64,000 nt of DNA. Origin: Candidatus Hydrothermus pacificus (GTDB taxonomy: Bacteria; Hydrothermota; Hydrothermia; Hydrothermales; Hydrothermaceae). The position numbers and the translations under genes are program-made. The stretch lies in the NCBI GenBank assembly GCA_002011615.1, contig MTOH01000011.1:62001-126000 (forward strand). The letters run 5' to 3'. Each line of letters starts with the position of its first letter. Position 1 is the stretch's first letter. Under the pieces are notes generated by a model. It was given only the letters and a program-made list of their open reading frames with translations, ran no database searches and was not told the DNA's origin. Positions 1,993 to 31,828 of the stretch are shown here, piece after piece.

Positions 1993-3181
1993 TTCTCTCT
2001 ATTTCATTCAATATACCTTTTTTAAACTTTAAAGTTATTTTTAGACTATCATAATCCCACTCCTCCACTCCTTTCTTTTTCCTTATTCTTGCAGGTTTTC
2101 CTATGGAAATATAAACCTCCTCCTGTGTCATTCCCTTTTCATATTTCCCTTCCATTATTTTCTTTAATTTCTCTTTTTCATAAATTTTTGAAAGCTCTTT
2201 AAAAACACTGTCTTTACCCAGAGTTAAAGTTAAATTTTTAAAAGCCCATCTTTTTTGCTCCAGAGGATAATCACCTTTCAGTATCACAATAAATCCCTTT
2301 TCTCTATTCTCCATTTCGTTTATAAGAGTCCTTACCTTTTCTCTTATCCTTTGCTCGGGGTCTTTAAGAAAGCTGTATAAAAGGGGTATTGAAACTTCCG
2401 GAGGCACTTCCTGAAGAATATGAACCACCCTTTCCCTTATAGAGAAATCAGGGTCATTCACAAAATCTTTAATAAGTTCAATAGACCTTTCAGAAAAGTT
2501 CTTTGTAATTGAGAGAATTGCTTCTTTCCTCACCATAGGATTTTCATCATTCAAAAGTTCTTTAAGGACTTTAAAGGAAAGAGTATCTTTAAAATAAGCA
2601 AGTGATTTTGCCAGGGATGTTCTTACAAGAGGATTTTTATCATCCTTTAACTTTATTATAACAGGTAGTAGATTTTTATCACCTGTTTTGCTTAAATAAG
2701 TTAAAGCCTTTGCGCGATTCAGAAAAGCAGGGTCTTCAAGGGATTTTATTAAATAGGGTTTTGCCTTTTCCGGATTTATTCTGTCAAGTGCTTCTATAAC
2801 TGCTCCCCTTACCGCATCATTTTTATCCCCTAAAAGTGAGGCAACCTTTTCAAACCCCGAAGTATCCCTTATCTCGCCTACCGCAATGATACAGTTTCTT
2901 CTTAAAGTTGAAGACCCACTTTTAATACCCTCATAAAGATAAGGCAATAGTGCTTCATCTTTTATTTTTGAAAATGCAATTGCTATTTTCTGTTTTATAA
3001 AAATATCTGTTTCAGGATTCTTAAAGGCATCTATTAGATAAGGAAGTAGAGTATCCTTTGATTTTACCCAGATTGAAATAATTGAATCTGCTTTTTCTGG
3101 ATTTTTCTTTAAAATTTTTGCCTCTTCCTGGAATTTGCTTTGAGATAAAATTAAAAACAGGATGAGGCTAAAACTTTTCAA
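1979..3181 (-). CDS. Exported HEAT-repeat protein with a BamE/SmpA-like tail
   Basis: A 400-residue protein with an N-terminal hydrophobic signal (about residues 1-15) and roughly nine HEAT/PBS-lyase-like helical repeats to about residue 310. The repeat pattern is DxxPxVRxxAxxAL, as in KDDKNPLVRTSLAKSLAYF. Residues from about 345 on (MTQEEVYISIGKPARIRKKKGVEEWDY) fit the SmpA/OmlA/BamE-type fold motif, in which a TxxEVxxxxGxP turn precedes a WxY strand. No catalytic residues are apparent, so a periplasmic scaffold role is inferred. It is last in the minus-strand operon and its start overlaps the M16 gene before it by 14 nt. Confidence 0.75.
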   Translation of the reverse strand: MKSFSLILFLILSQSKFQEEAKILKKNPEKADSIISIWVKSKDTLLPYLIDAFKNPETDIFIKQKIAIAFSKIKDEALLPYLYEGIKSGSSTLRRNCIIAVGEIRDTSGFEKVASLLGDKNDAVRGAVIEALDRINPEKAKPYLIKSLEDPAFLNRAKALTYLSKTGDKNLLPVIIKLKDDKNPLVRTSLAKSLAYFKDTLSFKVLKELLNDENPMVRKEAILSITKNFSERSIELIKDFVNDPDFSIRERVVHILQEVPPEVSIPLLYSFLKDPEQRIREKVRTLINEMENREKGFIVILKGDYPLEQKRWAFKNLTLTLGKDSVFKELSKIYEKEKLKKIMEGKYEKGMTQEEVYISIGKPARIRKKKGVEEWDYDSLKITLKFKKGILNEIERISHE

Positions 3182-26337: not shown

Positions 26338-26347
26338 TAATATTTAA

Positions 26348-26376
26348 TTGAAATTTCTCTTAAAATCCTTTATAAT
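26348..26376 (+). promoter_or_regulatory. Strong predicted promoter of the DtxR-feoAB operon
   Basis: TTGAAA (26348-26353), a 17-nt spacer and a perfect TATAAT (26371-26376). The start point would be near 26383, leaving a leader of about 25 nt that is almost entirely occupied by the palindrome at 26390-26408. Confidence 0.8.
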
Positions 26377-26389
26377 TAAAACTTAAATT

Positions 26390-26408
26390 AAACTAACAAA
26401 GTTAGATT
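26390..26408. promoter_or_regulatory. Palindromic operator candidate before the DtxR-like gene
   Basis: AAACTAAC-AAA-GTTAGATT, a dyad with seven of eight arm pairs matching. It lies just downstream of the predicted start site and abuts the ATG at 26409. It sits where a self-repressing metal regulator would act. The arm order (CTAAC then GTTAG) is the reverse of the classical actinobacterial iron box (GTTAG then CTAAC), so it is not that motif. The dyad also replaces any Shine-Dalgarno. Confidence 0.55.
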
Positions 26409-26807
26409 ATGGAAACTTTAAGTCCCTCACTTGAGGATTATCTTGAGGCAATTTATATATTAAAAGAGAAAAAGGGATTTACAAGGGTTTCTGAAATAGC
26501 AGATTTTTTGAATGTAAAAATGCCTTCTGTAAACTCAGCTTTAAAAATTCTCGTGGAAAAAGGACTTGTGGTTCATGAAACTTATGGCTATGTCAGTCTT
26601 ACTGAGAAAGGCGAGAAGAAGGCTAAAAAAGTTTATTCAAGACATCTAATTTTAAAAAAATTTTTTAAAGATATTCTGGGTCTGGATGAAAAAAAAGCAG
26701 AAGAAGACGCCTGCAGGATAGAACACCATATAAGCCAGGAATCCCTTGAAAAACTTTTAAAATACATTAAAAAGATTATAAACAAAGATGTCACTATCTC
26801 AGGTTAA
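26409..26807 (+). CDS. DtxR/MntR-family metal-responsive repressor
   Basis: A 132-residue regulator. The N-terminal winged helix-turn-helix reads SLEDYLEAIYILKEKKGFTRVSEIADFLNVKMPSVNSALKILVEKGLV, the classical DtxR/MntR/IdeR DNA-binding pattern. It is followed by the dimerisation and metal region (KKFFKDILGLDEKKAEEDACRIEHHISQESLEKL), whose C-x-x-E-H-H supplies the usual Cys/Glu/His ligands. The C-terminal SH3-like domain of DtxR is missing, as in short MntR-type proteins. It is the first gene of the feoA-feoB operon and probably represses it when Fe(II) or Mn(II) is plentiful. It overlaps feoA by 20 nt. Confidence 0.92.
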   Translation: METLSPSLEDYLEAIYILKEKKGFTRVSEIADFLNVKMPSVNSALKILVEKGLVVHETYGYVSLTEKGEKKAKKVYSRHLILKKFFKDILGLDEKKAEEDACRIEHHISQESLEKLLKYIKKIINKDVTISG

Positions 26808-27009
26808 AAAAGGGAAAGTAAGAATTGCAGGATTTGCGGGGGGTAAAAATTTTCAAAAAAAAATGCTTGCCCTTGGAATCTTTGTGGGGGATATTGTTGA
26901 AGTAATCGCAAACAATTATCCCGGTCCTGTGATAATTGCCAAGAACAGTTTAAGAATAGGCATAGGATTTGGAATGGCAACAAAAATTCTTGTGGAAAAG
27001 ATTTCATAA
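26788..27009 (+). CDS. feoA: FeoA-type ferrous iron transport accessory protein
   Basis: A 73-residue SH3-like FeoA protein: SLSQVKKGKVRIAGFAGG, a GKNFQKKMLALGIFVGDIVEVIA turn, and a GPVIIAKNSLRIGIGFGMATKILV end. This is the typical full length of a stand-alone FeoA, which binds and modulates FeoB. It starts 20 nt inside the 3' end of the regulator gene and shares one base with the feoB ATG (TAATG), so the three are translationally coupled. Confidence 0.95.
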   Translation: MSLSQVKKGKVRIAGFAGGKNFQKKMLALGIFVGDIVEVIANNYPGPVIIAKNSLRIGIGFGMATKILVEKIS

Positions 27010-28985
27010 TGAAGAAAGTAGCAATTGCAGGAAATCCAAATTCAGGGAAATCAACAATATTTAACAATCTAACAGGCCTTTCTCAGAAAACAGGAAACTG
27101 GCCGGGTGTTACAGTTGAAAAAAGCGAGGGTGAATTCACTTATAATGGAGAAAAATTTTATGTTGTTGACCTTCCAGGAACCTATGGGCTCTCCACTTTT
27201 ACCATTGATGAAAAAATAGCAAGAGATTTTCTGGTGAAAGAAAAACCCGATGTTGTTGTAATTGTGGTTGATTCCTCAAATATTGAAAGACATTTTTATC
27301 TTGTTACTGAAATTCTTGAGATGGGTCATAATGTTGTAATTGATTTAAACATGATTGACCTGGCAGAGGAAAAGGGTGATTTTATTGATGAAAAAATGCT
27401 TTCAAAGATTTTAAAGGTTCCTGTTGTTAAAACAATTGCGAATAAAAACAAAGGGACAGAGGAACTAAAAAAATCGATTTACGAAGTTTCAAAAAAAGAA
27501 AAAAATGAGCCCTTAAAAATAAATTATGGAAGAGATATTGAAGAATTCATTGAATTTTTGAGAGATAAAGTCAATCTTCCTGAAAATTTTCCTGAAAGAT
27601 GGGCGTATTTAAAAATATTTTCAAAGGACGAAGAAATATTTGAATTTGTAAAAGATAAAGAGAAAGTAGATGAAAAAATAGACAGGATAGTTAAATCTCG
27701 CGGATTTCCTGACCCGGAAACTTTTATTGTAGAAAAAAAATACGGATTTATAAGAGGTGTTTTAAAGGAATGCATAAAAGAAAAAAGGAAACTGTGGAAA
27801 AGACTTGAAATAAGTGACAAGATTGATAGAGTTATAACAAATCCATGGGTGGGAATACCGCTGTTTTTAATCTTTATGTTAATTATTTTTGAAATTGTAT
27901 TTGGCATCGGTAATCCTCTGGCAGATTTAATAGACAGATTTATAGGTTTTTTAAATGAAAGTTTAAAAACTCTATTTGCCCGAATATTTCCGCACTTTTT
28001 AACATCCCTTTTAACTGATGGAATAATAAGTGGTGTTGGTTCTGTAATTGTTTTCCTGCCGAATATATTCCTGCTTTTCTTTCTAATCTCATTTATGGAA
28101 GACTCAGGATATATGGCAAGAGCAGCCTTTGTAATGGACAGGTTCATGCACTACATAGGTCTTCATGGAAAATCTTTTATTCCAATGATACTCGGTTTTG
28201 GATGCAATGTTCCTGCAATTCTTGCAACAAGAACTCTTGATTCAAAAAAAGATAGAATTTTAACGATAATGATTATACCTTTGATGTCATGTTCTGCAAG
28301 ACTCCCAATCTATATTCTATTTACAGGGGCTTTCTTTAAAAAATTTCAGGCACCGATTGTCTTTTCTCTTTATTTTACAGGAGTTTTCCTCGCCATTGTG
28401 GTTGCAAAAATCTTAAGCAGGACAGTATTTAAAAAAGAGGAATCCCCTCCCCTTATAATGGAACTACCACCTTATAAAAAGCCCGCAATAAGATGGAGCT
28501 TAAAACTCTCCTGGTTCAGAAGCAAATTGTTTCTGAGAAAAGCAGGAACAATAATATTCTCAGCCGTTGTGATTATATGGCTTTTATCGTCTCTTCCCCC
28601 GGGTGTAGAATATGCAAGTAAGGAATCAATCCTGGGCAAGATAGGTTCTTTTATTGCACCGATTTTTTCACCTGCAGGGTTTGGAAGATGGGAGATAGCA
28701 GTTGCTCTTTTAAGCGGAATTGTCGCAAAGGAAGTGGTGGTGGGAACATTGGGAGCAATTTTCGGAGAACAGGGGCTGATATCCTCCCTTCAAAGTATAT
28801 TTACCCCTTTATCGGCCTATGCCTTTTTGCTCATGTCTTTAATATACATACCCTGTGTTGCAACAATAACAGCAATCAAAAACGAAGCAGGAATAAAATA
28901 TCTTTTACTCACAATTCTATATACCTTCCTTCTGGGCTGGCTTCTTGCGGTAATATTTTATCAGATCGGAAGATTTTTTATTTAA
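27009..28985 (+). CDS. feoB: FeoB ferrous iron transporter
   Basis: A 658-residue Fe(II) transporter. The N-terminal G domain (about 1-170) has GNPNSGKST (8-16), NWPGVTVEK, VDLPGTYGLS (G3) and an N-x-x-D-like DLNMIDLA (G4). A linker and guanine-dissociation-inhibitor helical region follow, then the membrane domain from about residue 275. The latter has two gate repeats carrying the conserved Cys residues FGCNVPAI and LMSCSARLPIYILFTGAFF, and near the end a YIPCVATITAIKNE stretch. It imports ferrous iron through the inner membrane. An asparagine-synthase-like gene follows 5 nt after its stop. Confidence 0.97.
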   Translation: MKKVAIAGNPNSGKSTIFNNLTGLSQKTGNWPGVTVEKSEGEFTYNGEKFYVVDLPGTYGLSTFTIDEKIARDFLVKEKPDVVVIVVDSSNIERHFYLVTEILEMGHNVVIDLNMIDLAEEKGDFIDEKMLSKILKVPVVKTIANKNKGTEELKKSIYEVSKKEKNEPLKINYGRDIEEFIEFLRDKVNLPENFPERWAYLKIFSKDEEIFEFVKDKEKVDEKIDRIVKSRGFPDPETFIVEKKYGFIRGVLKECIKEKRKLWKRLEISDKIDRVITNPWVGIPLFLIFMLIIFEIVFGIGNPLADLIDRFIGFLNESLKTLFARIFPHFLTSLLTDGIISGVGSVIVFLPNIFLLFFLISFMEDSGYMARAAFVMDRFMHYIGLHGKSFIPMILGFGCNVPAILATRTLDSKKDRILTIMIIPLMSCSARLPIYILFTGAFFKKFQAPIVFSLYFTGVFLAIVVAKILSRTVFKKEESPPLIMELPPYKKPAIRWSLKLSWFRSKLFLRKAGTIIFSAVVIIWLLSSLPPGVEYASKESILGKIGSFIAPIFSPAGFGRWEIAVALLSGIVAKEVVVGTLGAIFGEQGLISSLQSIFTPLSAYAFLLMSLIYIPCVATITAIKNEAGIKYLLLTILYTFLLGWLLAVIFYQIGRFFI

Positions 28986-28990
28986 GTGAT

Positions 28991-30742
28991 ATGCCGGGTA
29001 TAACTCTGTTATTTACAGAAGATTCTAACACTTCAAATATAATTCTTTTTAGAGAAGAAACAAAATTTAAAAACTATTCCGCTAAAGTTCTCCTTAAAAA
29101 AGACAATTTTTTATTAACCGTTAATAAATATAAAGAATATCCTTTTATTTTTAAAAAATACAAAGACATTTTCTATTTTTTAGAAGGCAAAATTTATAAC
29201 AGGAATGAACCTGAAATTGAAAAATTTCTATATCAGATTTATTGTGATTTTATAGAAAACAAAAACTATGAAGAAAGGATTAAAAATTTTATACTTACGA
29301 CGGACGGTGAATTCTTAGCAGGTATATTTGAAAAGAATAATTCTCTAATCTTTAATGATTTTCTTGGCAGGTTGCCCTTTTACCTTTTTAAAGATAAAAA
29401 TAAATTTATACTATCCAGGGATATCTGGATAATAAGAAAATTTATAAATGTTCCTGAAATTGATATAAATTCTCTGATTGAATATCTTTTATTCATGTAT
29501 CCACTGGGAGAAAAGACTCTTTTAAAAAATGTTTCAAGACTTTTACCCGCAACCTGCATTGAATTCAAAAGGAATACTTTGAAAATTAAAAAATTATTTG
29601 AATGGAATTTTGAAGAAAAAGAAAATATTGATTTTAAATCAGGTGTCCAAAATCTTTACAGCTCATTTTTGAATGCACTGGAAAATAGAGTTCAAACCTT
29701 TAAAGATTATAAAATTGTGCTTTCTTTTAGTGGGGGTTTCGACTCAAGAGCGGTTTTTATGGGTTTAAAAAAAATAAATACTGAATTCCATCCTGTCACA
29801 TTTATTGACCCTGATAAAAAGCATCAGGAAGACTTTATAATTTCAAAGGAAATAAATAAAATAGCAGAAACAGAAACAAAATTTTTTGAAATTAAAGAGT
29901 TTAATCTGAAATCTATGACAGAATTGATAAAAATAAAACAGGGCTTAAACTATGCAGAGATGGGATTTATAATGGACTTTTCTGAGATGTTAAAAAAAGA
30001 ACTGGGTAATAATATTTTTTATATCACAGGAGATGGAGGTGATAAACTTCTACCCTACTTACTTCCCTCAAAAAAATTAAAAAGCATAGATGATTTATTT
30101 CAGTTTATAATAACAAAAAACAAAATATTTGAACCCTTTGAAATTGAAAGAATTACAGGAACAAATTTCAATAAAGTAAAAGAAAAAATTAAAGAAAAAA
30201 TTTCAGAGTATCCTGAAAACAATCTGAATTACAGATACATACATTTTTTAATTTATGAAAGATGCTTTAAATGGCTCTTTGAAGGTGAAGACAGAAACAG
30301 GTATTTTTTCTGGTCAGGAACCCCCTTTTATTCAATTGAGTTTTTTAAAACTGCCGTAAAGTTAAAAGATAACTACAAAAAGTATTACAGGTTGTATAGA
30401 GAATTTTTTAAATTATTGGATGGGGAAATAGCAGGAATCAGGAGAGCAGGATTTGATTACGGGATTTTTGACAGGAAAATCATTATAAGAGAATATTTAA
30501 AATACTTTGTCTTAAAATTTCCTTTTATTTTGAATTTCCTGGAGACCAAACACAGAAGAAAATCTTTTTATAGCCCTACTCAAAACCTTTATAATAAATT
30601 CACGGAAATTTTTGAAGAGAACGATATTGTGAAGGAAATTTTTAATAAAAAAGCATTAGAGGAAATGAAGGAAAATTTGAATAGAGAAAAATTTTTTACC
30701 CTCTTAACACTCTTTCTTTATTTTGATTATCTTCAGTGGTAA
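28991..30742 (+). CDS. Asparagine synthase-like protein without the glutaminase Cys
   Basis: A 583-residue protein of the AsnB superfamily. Residues 1-150 resemble the Ntn glutaminase fold (GEFLAGIFEKNNSLIFNDFLGRLPF), but the chain begins Met-Pro-Gly, so the Cys nucleophile of true glutamine-dependent enzymes is absent. The ATP-pyrophosphatase loop SFSGGFDS is at 245-252 and TGDGGDKLL completes the AMP-forming site. The frame is open upstream inside feoB; the ATG at 28991, 5 nt after the feoB stop, was taken as start. It probably adenylates a carboxylate for amide or macrocycle formation. True asparagine synthesis from ammonia is an alternative. Confidence 0.8.
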   Translation: MPGITLLFTEDSNTSNIILFREETKFKNYSAKVLLKKDNFLLTVNKYKEYPFIFKKYKDIFYFLEGKIYNRNEPEIEKFLYQIYCDFIENKNYEERIKNFILTTDGEFLAGIFEKNNSLIFNDFLGRLPFYLFKDKNKFILSRDIWIIRKFINVPEIDINSLIEYLLFMYPLGEKTLLKNVSRLLPATCIEFKRNTLKIKKLFEWNFEEKENIDFKSGVQNLYSSFLNALENRVQTFKDYKIVLSFSGGFDSRAVFMGLKKINTEFHPVTFIDPDKKHQEDFIISKEINKIAETETKFFEIKEFNLKSMTELIKIKQGLNYAEMGFIMDFSEMLKKELGNNIFYITGDGGDKLLPYLLPSKKLKSIDDLFQFIITKNKIFEPFEIERITGTNFNKVKEKIKEKISEYPENNLNYRYIHFLIYERCFKWLFEGEDRNRYFFWSGTPFYSIEFFKTAVKLKDNYKKYYRLYREFFKLLDGEIAGIRRAGFDYGIFDRKIIIREYLKYFVLKFPFILNFLETKHRRKSFYSPTQNLYNKFTEIFEENDIVKEIFNKKALEEMKENLNREKFFTLLTLFLYFDYLQW

Positions 30743-30751
30743 CCTTATAAT
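30723..30751 (+). promoter_or_regulatory. Predicted leaderless promoter of the radical SAM gene
   Basis: TTGATT (30723-30728), a 17-nt spacer and a perfect TATAAT (30746-30751). The ATG at 30758 comes just 6 nt later, which is the expected transcription start position. The -35 box lies inside the 3' end of the asparagine-synthase-like gene. Confidence 0.7.
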
Positions 30752-30757
30752 TTTTAT

Positions 30758-31828
30758 ATGTTTGTTTATAAAGAATTCTTAAGGTTGAAAAACAATCTAC
30801 CTGCTGTTGCTCACATTACCCTCAATGTAAAATGTATGCATAAATGTAAAACATGCGGATACTGGAGAATTTATGAAAAGGTAAAAGACCGCGGCATGAA
30901 AAAAGAAGAAATATTTAAAATATGTGATGATTTGATTTCTTTTGGAATAAAAAGGTTTTTATTTGTCGATACAGACCCCCTTTTAAGAAAAGACCTTCCT
31001 GAAATAATAAAATATTTAAAAAACAAAGATGCTCATGTTCAGATTGTCACAACAGGAATGAATTTAAATAAAATTTTCGCTGAAAACTTAATTTCTTCGG
31101 GAGTAGATGTCATAAAATTCTCTATAGATGGACACAACGGTTTGAACGATTTTATAAGAGGAATAAAAGGAGCCTATAAAAAATCGGTACAGGGAATAAA
31201 AACTTTAAAAGAATTAAGAAGAAATAAAAACAAACCAAAAATTTATGTGATGACGGTTGTTTCAAAACTAAATATAAATGAAATTGAGAAAATTAAAGAA
31301 AAGATTTATTATGATACAGGAGGGGTTGATAATCATTATTTTGGGCCGGTCCTTGAAATAAAAAAAGATGTTTTTGAAAAAACAAAATGGAAGGGCAAAA
31401 ATGTCGCAAGTTTAAATTTAATTCCTTATGAAAAATCCTATTCACTTAATTATCATGATATAAAAAAACTGCTAAAAATAAACAAAGATAAAGGAACTTA
31501 TTTCTTATTCGGCAGGATAATAAAACTACTTGATGCAATTTTATATATAAAAAGAAGAAAATGCCCTTCCTTTCATCAGGTTCACATAGATGTTGATGGA
31601 AACTTAATTCCCTGCTCCTTTTTACCGGGAATAAAACTGGGAAATTTAAAAGAGAATTCAATTAAAGAACTATGGAGAAAGAGAGAACACTCAAAATTTA
31701 TAAATTATTTGAGGAAAAAAGCATTTCCTGTGTGCTTTGAAATATGCTGGAAAAGAAGTATATTTAATGTCGCTTCTCAAACTGCAAGTTTAAGAGAGCT
31801 GATTTTTAAAAGATTCGGGAAATTCTAA
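30758..31828 (+). CDS. Radical SAM enzyme with SPASM-like C-terminal cysteines
   Basis: A 356-residue radical SAM protein. The [4Fe-4S] motif CxxxCxxC is C26-C30-C33 (NVKCMHKCKTCGYW), very close to the N-terminus. A TIM-barrel core follows (RGIKGAYKKSVQGIKTLKEL). The C-terminal part has CPSFHQVHIDVDGNLIPCSFL, the SPASM/Twitch-type pattern that binds an auxiliary cluster, then a CFEICWKR ending. Such enzymes modify peptides (sactipeptides, PQQ, mycofactocin), nucleosides or lipids. The substrate cannot be told. It lies 15 nt after the asparagine-synthase-like gene but has its own promoter. The stop overlaps the convergent membrane-protein gene by 4 nt. Confidence 0.88.
   Translation: MFVYKEFLRLKNNLPAVAHITLNVKCMHKCKTCGYWRIYEKVKDRGMKKEEIFKICDDLISFGIKRFLFVDTDPLLRKDLPEIIKYLKNKDAHVQIVTTGMNLNKIFAENLISSGVDVIKFSIDGHNGLNDFIRGIKGAYKKSVQGIKTLKELRRNKNKPKIYVMTVVSKLNINEIEKIKEKIYYDTGGVDNHYFGPVLEIKKDVFEKTKWKGKNVASLNLIPYEKSYSLNYHDIKKLLKINKDKGTYFLFGRIIKLLDAILYIKRRKCPSFHQVHIDVDGNLIPCSFLPGIKLGNLKENSIKELWRKREHSKFINYLRKKAFPVCFEICWKRSIFNVASQTASLRELIFKRFGKF

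Follow-up and report, generated by a model that had tools for sequence, protein, structure and literature searches.

Repressors of the DtxR family bind double-stranded DNA, as described in PMC10317159 and in keeping with general knowledge of the family. In Saccharopolyspora erythraea the 14-bp sequence TTAGGNNNNCCTAA is reported as an IdeR site that takes a single dimer, and the iron box has been generalised to this unit (PMC8464063). On mneP, MntR dimers are described at 18-bp sites lying 1 bp apart, which gives a 19-bp pitch, and as touching through dimer-dimer contacts; the spacing at E. coli mntS is reported in the same source to be that of mneP (PMC11275975). The window, by which is meant the whole 64-kb stretch of DNA analysed here, contains a dtxR-feoA-feoB operon headed by what is probably its autoregulatory operator for metal-dependent repression, most likely a tandem of two classical-polarity boxes with a 19-bp pitch.

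Promoter, boxes and start codon

The features concerned are the following.

26348-26353, + strand: -35 hexamer TTGAAA, read from the letters
26371-26376, + strand: -10 hexamer TATAAT, after a 17-nt spacer from TTGAAA
26383-26396, + strand: box 1, TTAA-ATTAAA-CTAA (TTAAATTAAACTAA), a 14-bp box of classical DtxR/IdeR polarity with 7/8 core letters
26390-26408, no strand: dyad AAACTAAC-AAA-GTTAGATT, the right half-site of box 1 plus the left half-site of box 2
26397-26401, + strand: CAAAG, the 5 bp that separate the two boxes (19-bp pitch)
26402-26415, + strand: box 2, TTAG-ATTATG-GAAA (TTAGATTATGGAAA), left half 4/4, right half 2/4 (6/8 overall)
26409-26807, + strand: regulator of the dtxR family (132 aa), made up of a winged helix and a metal/dimerisation domain, without an SH3-like domain
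26788-27009, + strand: feoA (PF04023), overlapping the end of dtxR
27009-28985, + strand: feoB, ferrous iron transporter (TIGR00437), overlapping feoA

The two hexamers match the promoter consensus at 11 of 12 positions, and shuffles of the promoter stretch contain a mean of 1.3 promoter-like sites; from the usual distance to the -10, transcription is predicted to start at ~26383. The dyad, with its core CTAAC-AAA-GTTAG at 26393-26405, abuts the dtxR ATG at 26409 and there is no Shine-Dalgarno sequence; the preliminary description of hexamers, spacer, dyad, ATG contact and missing Shine-Dalgarno holds in every letter and coordinate. An in-frame TAG at 26403-26405 within the dyad makes 26409 the first usable start. 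An SD-like 4-mer precedes 23 of the 50 window genes, so that dtxR is not unusual here in lacking one. The letters of the dyad are not in themselves rare: exact CTAAC-N3-GTTAG occurs once in the 2.06-Mb genome, and with one mismatch allowed it occurs twice in the window, a count reached by 39 of 100 shuffles. It is position and conservation, rather than rarity, that set the dyad above chance. The same core lies at the ATG of the dtxR homologue (locus L034/L081) in G002, a genome of the same order and the nearest one with a comparable operon, where TTAAATTAGGCTAACAAAGTTAGAAAA precedes the ATG and the seam is letter-identical to that of the window; in an alignment of the two upstream regions the shared stretch consists of the -10 and the operator.

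The dyad is most likely the seam of two ordinary tandem iron-repressor boxes, i.e. the operator would be real and the motif not new. The preliminary description had read the arm order as opposite to that of the classical iron box and proposed a new binding motif, but this reading appears to be a slip of register: since the inner half-sites of two classical-polarity boxes at 19-bp pitch together form the dyad, its arms appear reversed and no new motif is needed. The left half of box 1 is degenerate, with TTAAATTAGGCTAA at the same place in G002, and the dtxR start codon lies within the spacer of box 2. Only one box pair at any pitch of 12-30 bp is present in the window, at 26383/26402 by the dtxR ATG, and the boxes have 12/19 matches to the full IdeR consensus as counted by eye. 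At 3 mismatches in 16 the paired pattern is found at three places in the genome, the two others being unsupported, and the window pair by itself is therefore weak and needs its position and its homologues for support. The pattern TTAG-N6-CTAA at 7/8 is strongly depleted in the window (6 sites against 47.65 expected for first-order Markov sequence).

Conservation of the box and its pitch

Homologues of dtxR were sought in 147 genomes of the phylum, 57 of which gave a match at E 1e-12, with an initial look at 100 relatives; at least 80 named genome loci were added from the best matches listed, so that these represent a sample of the best. After exclusion of upstreams shorter than 70 nt, 136 were reduced to 114 non-redundant ones by similarity (22 removed) and scanned from -130 to +25 with a threshold of 7/8 letters of TTAG-N6-CTAA. 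A script took the ATG closest to the homologous start as the start codon; not all of these assignments are certain, above all in family f22, several of whose starts fall within boxes; in L075, L076 and L077 of this family a possible start codon lies inside box 1, the true starts being uncertain. The set of 112 aligned proteins is the 114 minus two proteins of 90 aa or less, one of them L081 of G002, and tandem loci accordingly number 36 among the upstreams and 35 among the aligned proteins.

The box is conserved. It is present at 7/8 or better in 87 of the 114 upstreams; in the first pass, for which L010 was too short to be counted, it was found in 32 of 41 upstreams, where shuffles gave 3.6 on average and at most 9. 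A G precedes it in 52% and a C follows it in 78% (n=82), and several upstreams contain perfect iron boxes of classical polarity, e.g. TTAGGTTAGCCTAA in L012 and TTAGGTGAACCTAA in L039. The pitch is conserved as well. In 36 of the 114 upstreams a second box of at least 6/8 stands at a distance of exactly 19 bp. Shuffling everything except the best box gave 1.48 such upstreams on average and no more than 5 in any of 100 trials, and every other pitch from 1 to 40 is represented in only 0-4 upstreams. When both boxes are held to 7/8 or better, 17 pairs fall at pitch 19 and at most one at any other pitch from 12 to 44. Half-sites taken alone behave likewise, exact TTAG at +19 being found in 20/87 loci and exact CTAA at +29 in 13/83, against 0-2 loci at other offsets. 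The 112 aligned loci divide into 50 with a single box, 35 with tandem boxes and 27 with none; the tandem loci are spread over the window's own phylum and at least eight named phyla beyond it, and a quick protein tree gives, as a rough figure, at least 17 changes between tandem and single.

The relation of the pair to the ribosome site varies. In L080 the start codon lies within the box 2 spacer as in the window (TTAGTTATGCCTAA), in family f28 this spacer carries a Shine-Dalgarno sequence (TTAAAGGAGGCTAA and variants), and in L082, L085 and L090 a TATAAT-like -10 (promoter assigned by eye) is located in the seam. The constant feature is the box pair, not its placement relative to the ribosome site. 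Homologues in G001 and G003, of the same order as the window's genome, have no upstream box, and their proteins also lack several metal ligands; in L032 (G001) and L033 (G003) these are lost at the positions of Asp10, Glu13, Glu105 and His106, and the two are possibly metal-independent paralogues. In L081 (G002), dtxR at C2:72910-73223 has a broken frame of two overlapping pieces with an internal stop, possibly an assembly error or a pseudogene, and the operator is intact.

Alternative readings of the operator

Box 1 could be the sole operator, bound by a single dimer, with the GTTAG at +19 a leftover or a chance occurrence and the dyad incidental. Box 2 of the window retains its left half only (TTAG...GAAA) and single boxes are common among the homologues (50/112 aligned loci), which makes this a possible if less favoured reading; yet +19 is the only enriched offset for exact TTAG (20/87 against 0-2) and the seam CTAACAAAGTTAG is letter-identical in G002. 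Far less probable is a new type of DtxR operator, CTAAC-N3-GTTAG, with inverted arms, on which a single dimer would have its centre at 26399. In its favour, the dyad exists and is exact, and 10 of the 87 upstreams that contain a box have its core at the seam, as counted from printed sequences. The other 77 seams lack the exact core; the conserved unit across all 87 loci is instead TTAG-N6-CTAA, and wherever the core does occur it joins two half-sites of that kind. Least probable of all, and hardly to be expected, is an mRNA hairpin at the start codon serving translational control or as an RNA switch. The leader could pair CUAAC-AAA-GUUAG beside the AUG, but the candidate was rejected on folding no better than that of shuffles (z -1.05, with 28 of 200 folding equally well), and since the -10 assigned by eye lies inside the seam in L082, L085 and L090, the seam of these loci cannot be a leader hairpin. 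The tandem-box reading is that followed below.

Operon and regulon

The boxes are linked to the gene order of the operon. A box stands at the first gene in 64 of the 69 loci with feo downstream of dtxR (the other 5 have no 7/8 box), in 0 of 8 where dtxR follows feo, and in 23 of 37 where no feo was seen in the fetched DNA. In L084, where feoA is first, the pair TTAGGAATACCTAA-CAGTA-ATAGGTTAATCTAA has moved to feoA and ends 5 nt before its ATG; L087 is an exception, with none at feoA and a pair after dtxR ahead of a TonB receptor. The earlier proposal of a DtxR-type operator before dtxR-feoAB, probably autoregulated, is supported by this distribution. The window feoB is the only strong FeoB of its genome. 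Downstream of it, 28991-31828 contains an ORF weakly similar to asparagine-synthase-type cyclases/amidotransferases followed by a radical SAM/SPASM protein, which by similarity are possibly peptide modification genes.

The regulon of the relatives was approached by a pair scan of the phylum, after which 11 regions chosen among the matches were examined, with a domain scan that covered the ORFs beside their pairs except in L199 and L203. Pairs lie ahead of four TonB receptors (L198, L201, L204 and L087), and one short contig of G102 (L205) has two, at 496-528 and 2419-2451, before a flavodoxin and a HmuY-domain gene. Further pairs precede an FmdE-type gene (L207), proteins without a Pfam match (L200, L202) and a DUF5320 gene (L208), targets with no obvious iron role. 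By their annotation, the TonB receptor, flavodoxin and HmuY targets look like an iron-starvation regulon. L206 (G105:C84) shows three boxes in series at 19-bp pitch, at 3069-3120, with no ORF of at least 70 aa starting within 200 bp. Enrichment of the paired pattern by count in the phylum was discarded as a measure, the reversed control outscoring the real pattern at 2 mismatches.

A genome-wide search of the window's own genome with exact and relaxed box patterns yielded no second target. Exact TTAG-N6-CTAA is found there at three places, all within ORFs, and TTAR-N6-CTAAC at two, one being the dtxR operator and the other not ahead of an ORF of at least 90 aa.

The regulator and its metal

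The window regulator scores 54.8 bits with PF01325 (cut-off 26) and 68.6 bits with PF02742 (cut-off 27); it ends at residue 132 with no third domain, the C-terminal SH3-like domain being absent. No other DtxR homologue was found at E 0.001 in the 2.06-Mb genome, which also encodes one Fur-family protein that could share iron control. Its metal ligands are D10, E13, H79, C102, E105 and H106. The Fe-type set Met10, Cys102, Glu105, His106 is thus incomplete, the last three being present and position 10 being Asp, while five of the six residues of the Mn-type set Asp8, Glu11, His77, Glu99, Glu102, His103 are found, Glu99 being replaced by Cys. Read from the alignment, the set is a hybrid of the Fe type and the MntR type. 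The ligands are conserved: C102, E105 and H106 occur in 35/35 aligned tandem-locus proteins and D10 and E13 in 34, and the hybrid set is nearly universal among the homologues compared. The NCBIfam MntR model scores 99.7, under its cut-off of 138.

Met10 and Cys102 are linked to Fe selectivity in PMC10317159. That the regulator senses Fe is favoured from its target genes, and we hold this with good confidence. It could instead be an MntR-like sensor of Mn(II) rather than Fe(II), with an operon that moves both metals: the closest solved structures are those of MntR (1on1, E 1.6e-26), the SH3-like domain is absent, Asp occupies the position of MntR D8, and P. gingivalis PgMntR, a related protein with the same hybrid set, is reported to show tighter promoter binding with Mn and weaker binding with Fe (PMC4805248). 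Against this, each of the 35 tandem-locus proteins has Cys102 where MntR has Glu99, and the targets are feoAB, TonB receptors, flavodoxin and HmuY, so that Mn sensing seems rather unlikely.

Proposed mechanism

Under iron sensing and tandem boxes, the operator would work as follows. Box 1 lies where transcription is predicted to start, and box 2 covers the start codon. With sufficient Fe(II), the short regulator would dimerise on box 1; a second dimer would probably settle on the weaker box 2 through contact with the first, as MntR does on mneP. By analogy with MntR, short regulators like that of the window would bind as neighbouring dimers at 19-bp pitch, probably cooperatively, although the weakness of box 2 makes double occupancy at the window operator itself about an even bet. 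The bound repressor would block RNA polymerase and so switch off both the regulator and ferrous-iron uptake. The preliminary description had supposed that occupancy would also block the ribosome landing site; the repressor acts on DNA, as the family is described (PMC10317159), so repression is expected at transcription and a ribosome block is unlikely. The overlap of box and ATG is a matter of compactness.

Comparison with known systems

Every ingredient of this operator is already published; what is apparently new is their combination, together with how widely it occurs and its connection with dtxR-feoAB, and no description of 19-bp-pitch pairs of IdeR type at dtxR-feoAB operons was found in open-licence PubMed Central papers. 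It may be, and we regard the chances as evenly balanced, that they represent a widespread class of iron operator, in which IdeR-type 14-bp boxes at the MntR pitch of 19 bp are bound by a short hybrid-ligand DtxR as a cooperative two-dimer array. Such operators would have been gained or lost at least 17 times across the window's phylum and at least eight other, named phyla; they would control feoAB as well as TonB receptors, flavodoxin and HmuY, often with the start codon or Shine-Dalgarno sequence inside box 2. Boxes 19 bp apart give a simple searchable rule for predicting iron regulons in uncultured phyla. The dimer-array geometry solved for MntR activation is perhaps in wide use for iron repression, as is suggested here, and a testable link is offered between this geometry and a short regulator that lacks the SH3-like domain.

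Treponema TroR is likewise a DtxR-family Mn-/Fe-dependent repressor whose operator is reported just downstream of, or overlapping, a sigma-70-type promoter, but it is described with a single 18-bp dyad ahead of an ABC transporter operon (PMC2628430). S. mutans SloR at sloABC and mntH shares tandem promoter sites and cooperative repression of metal uptake, and differs, in the account of PMC12096823, in having 18-bp sites separated by 4 bp (a pitch of 22 bp), arms of AATTAA, Mn as the metal and a 25-kDa regulator. With the IdeR/DtxR iron box the window operator has in common its polarity, the 10-bp half-site spacing, the position at the transcription start, here a predicted one, and iron-uptake targets (PMC8464063, PMC10317159). 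Unlike the known 19-bp palindrome, as there described, in which two boxes overlap at 5 bp, the two 14-bp boxes here are separate with a 19-bp pitch; the regulator of the window is without the SH3-like domain and carries Asp instead of Met at position 10.

B. subtilis MntR at mneP/mneS resembles the window system in its 19-bp pitch, its short SH3-less regulator and a possible dimer-dimer contact. The MntR contact residue Tyr22 is Phe in the window regulator. A tie between an aromatic residue at this position and tandem boxes was considered and set aside: it is found in 11/35 tandem as against 2/50 single-box loci, significant by Fisher test (p 0.0012), and tree-aware independent pairs gave no clear outcome. 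MntR differs in the reported use, at mneP/mneS, of four weak sites to activate Mn efflux. Compared with these MntR arrays as described, the window operator has two boxes, half-sites of the IdeR type and genes for iron uptake as its targets.
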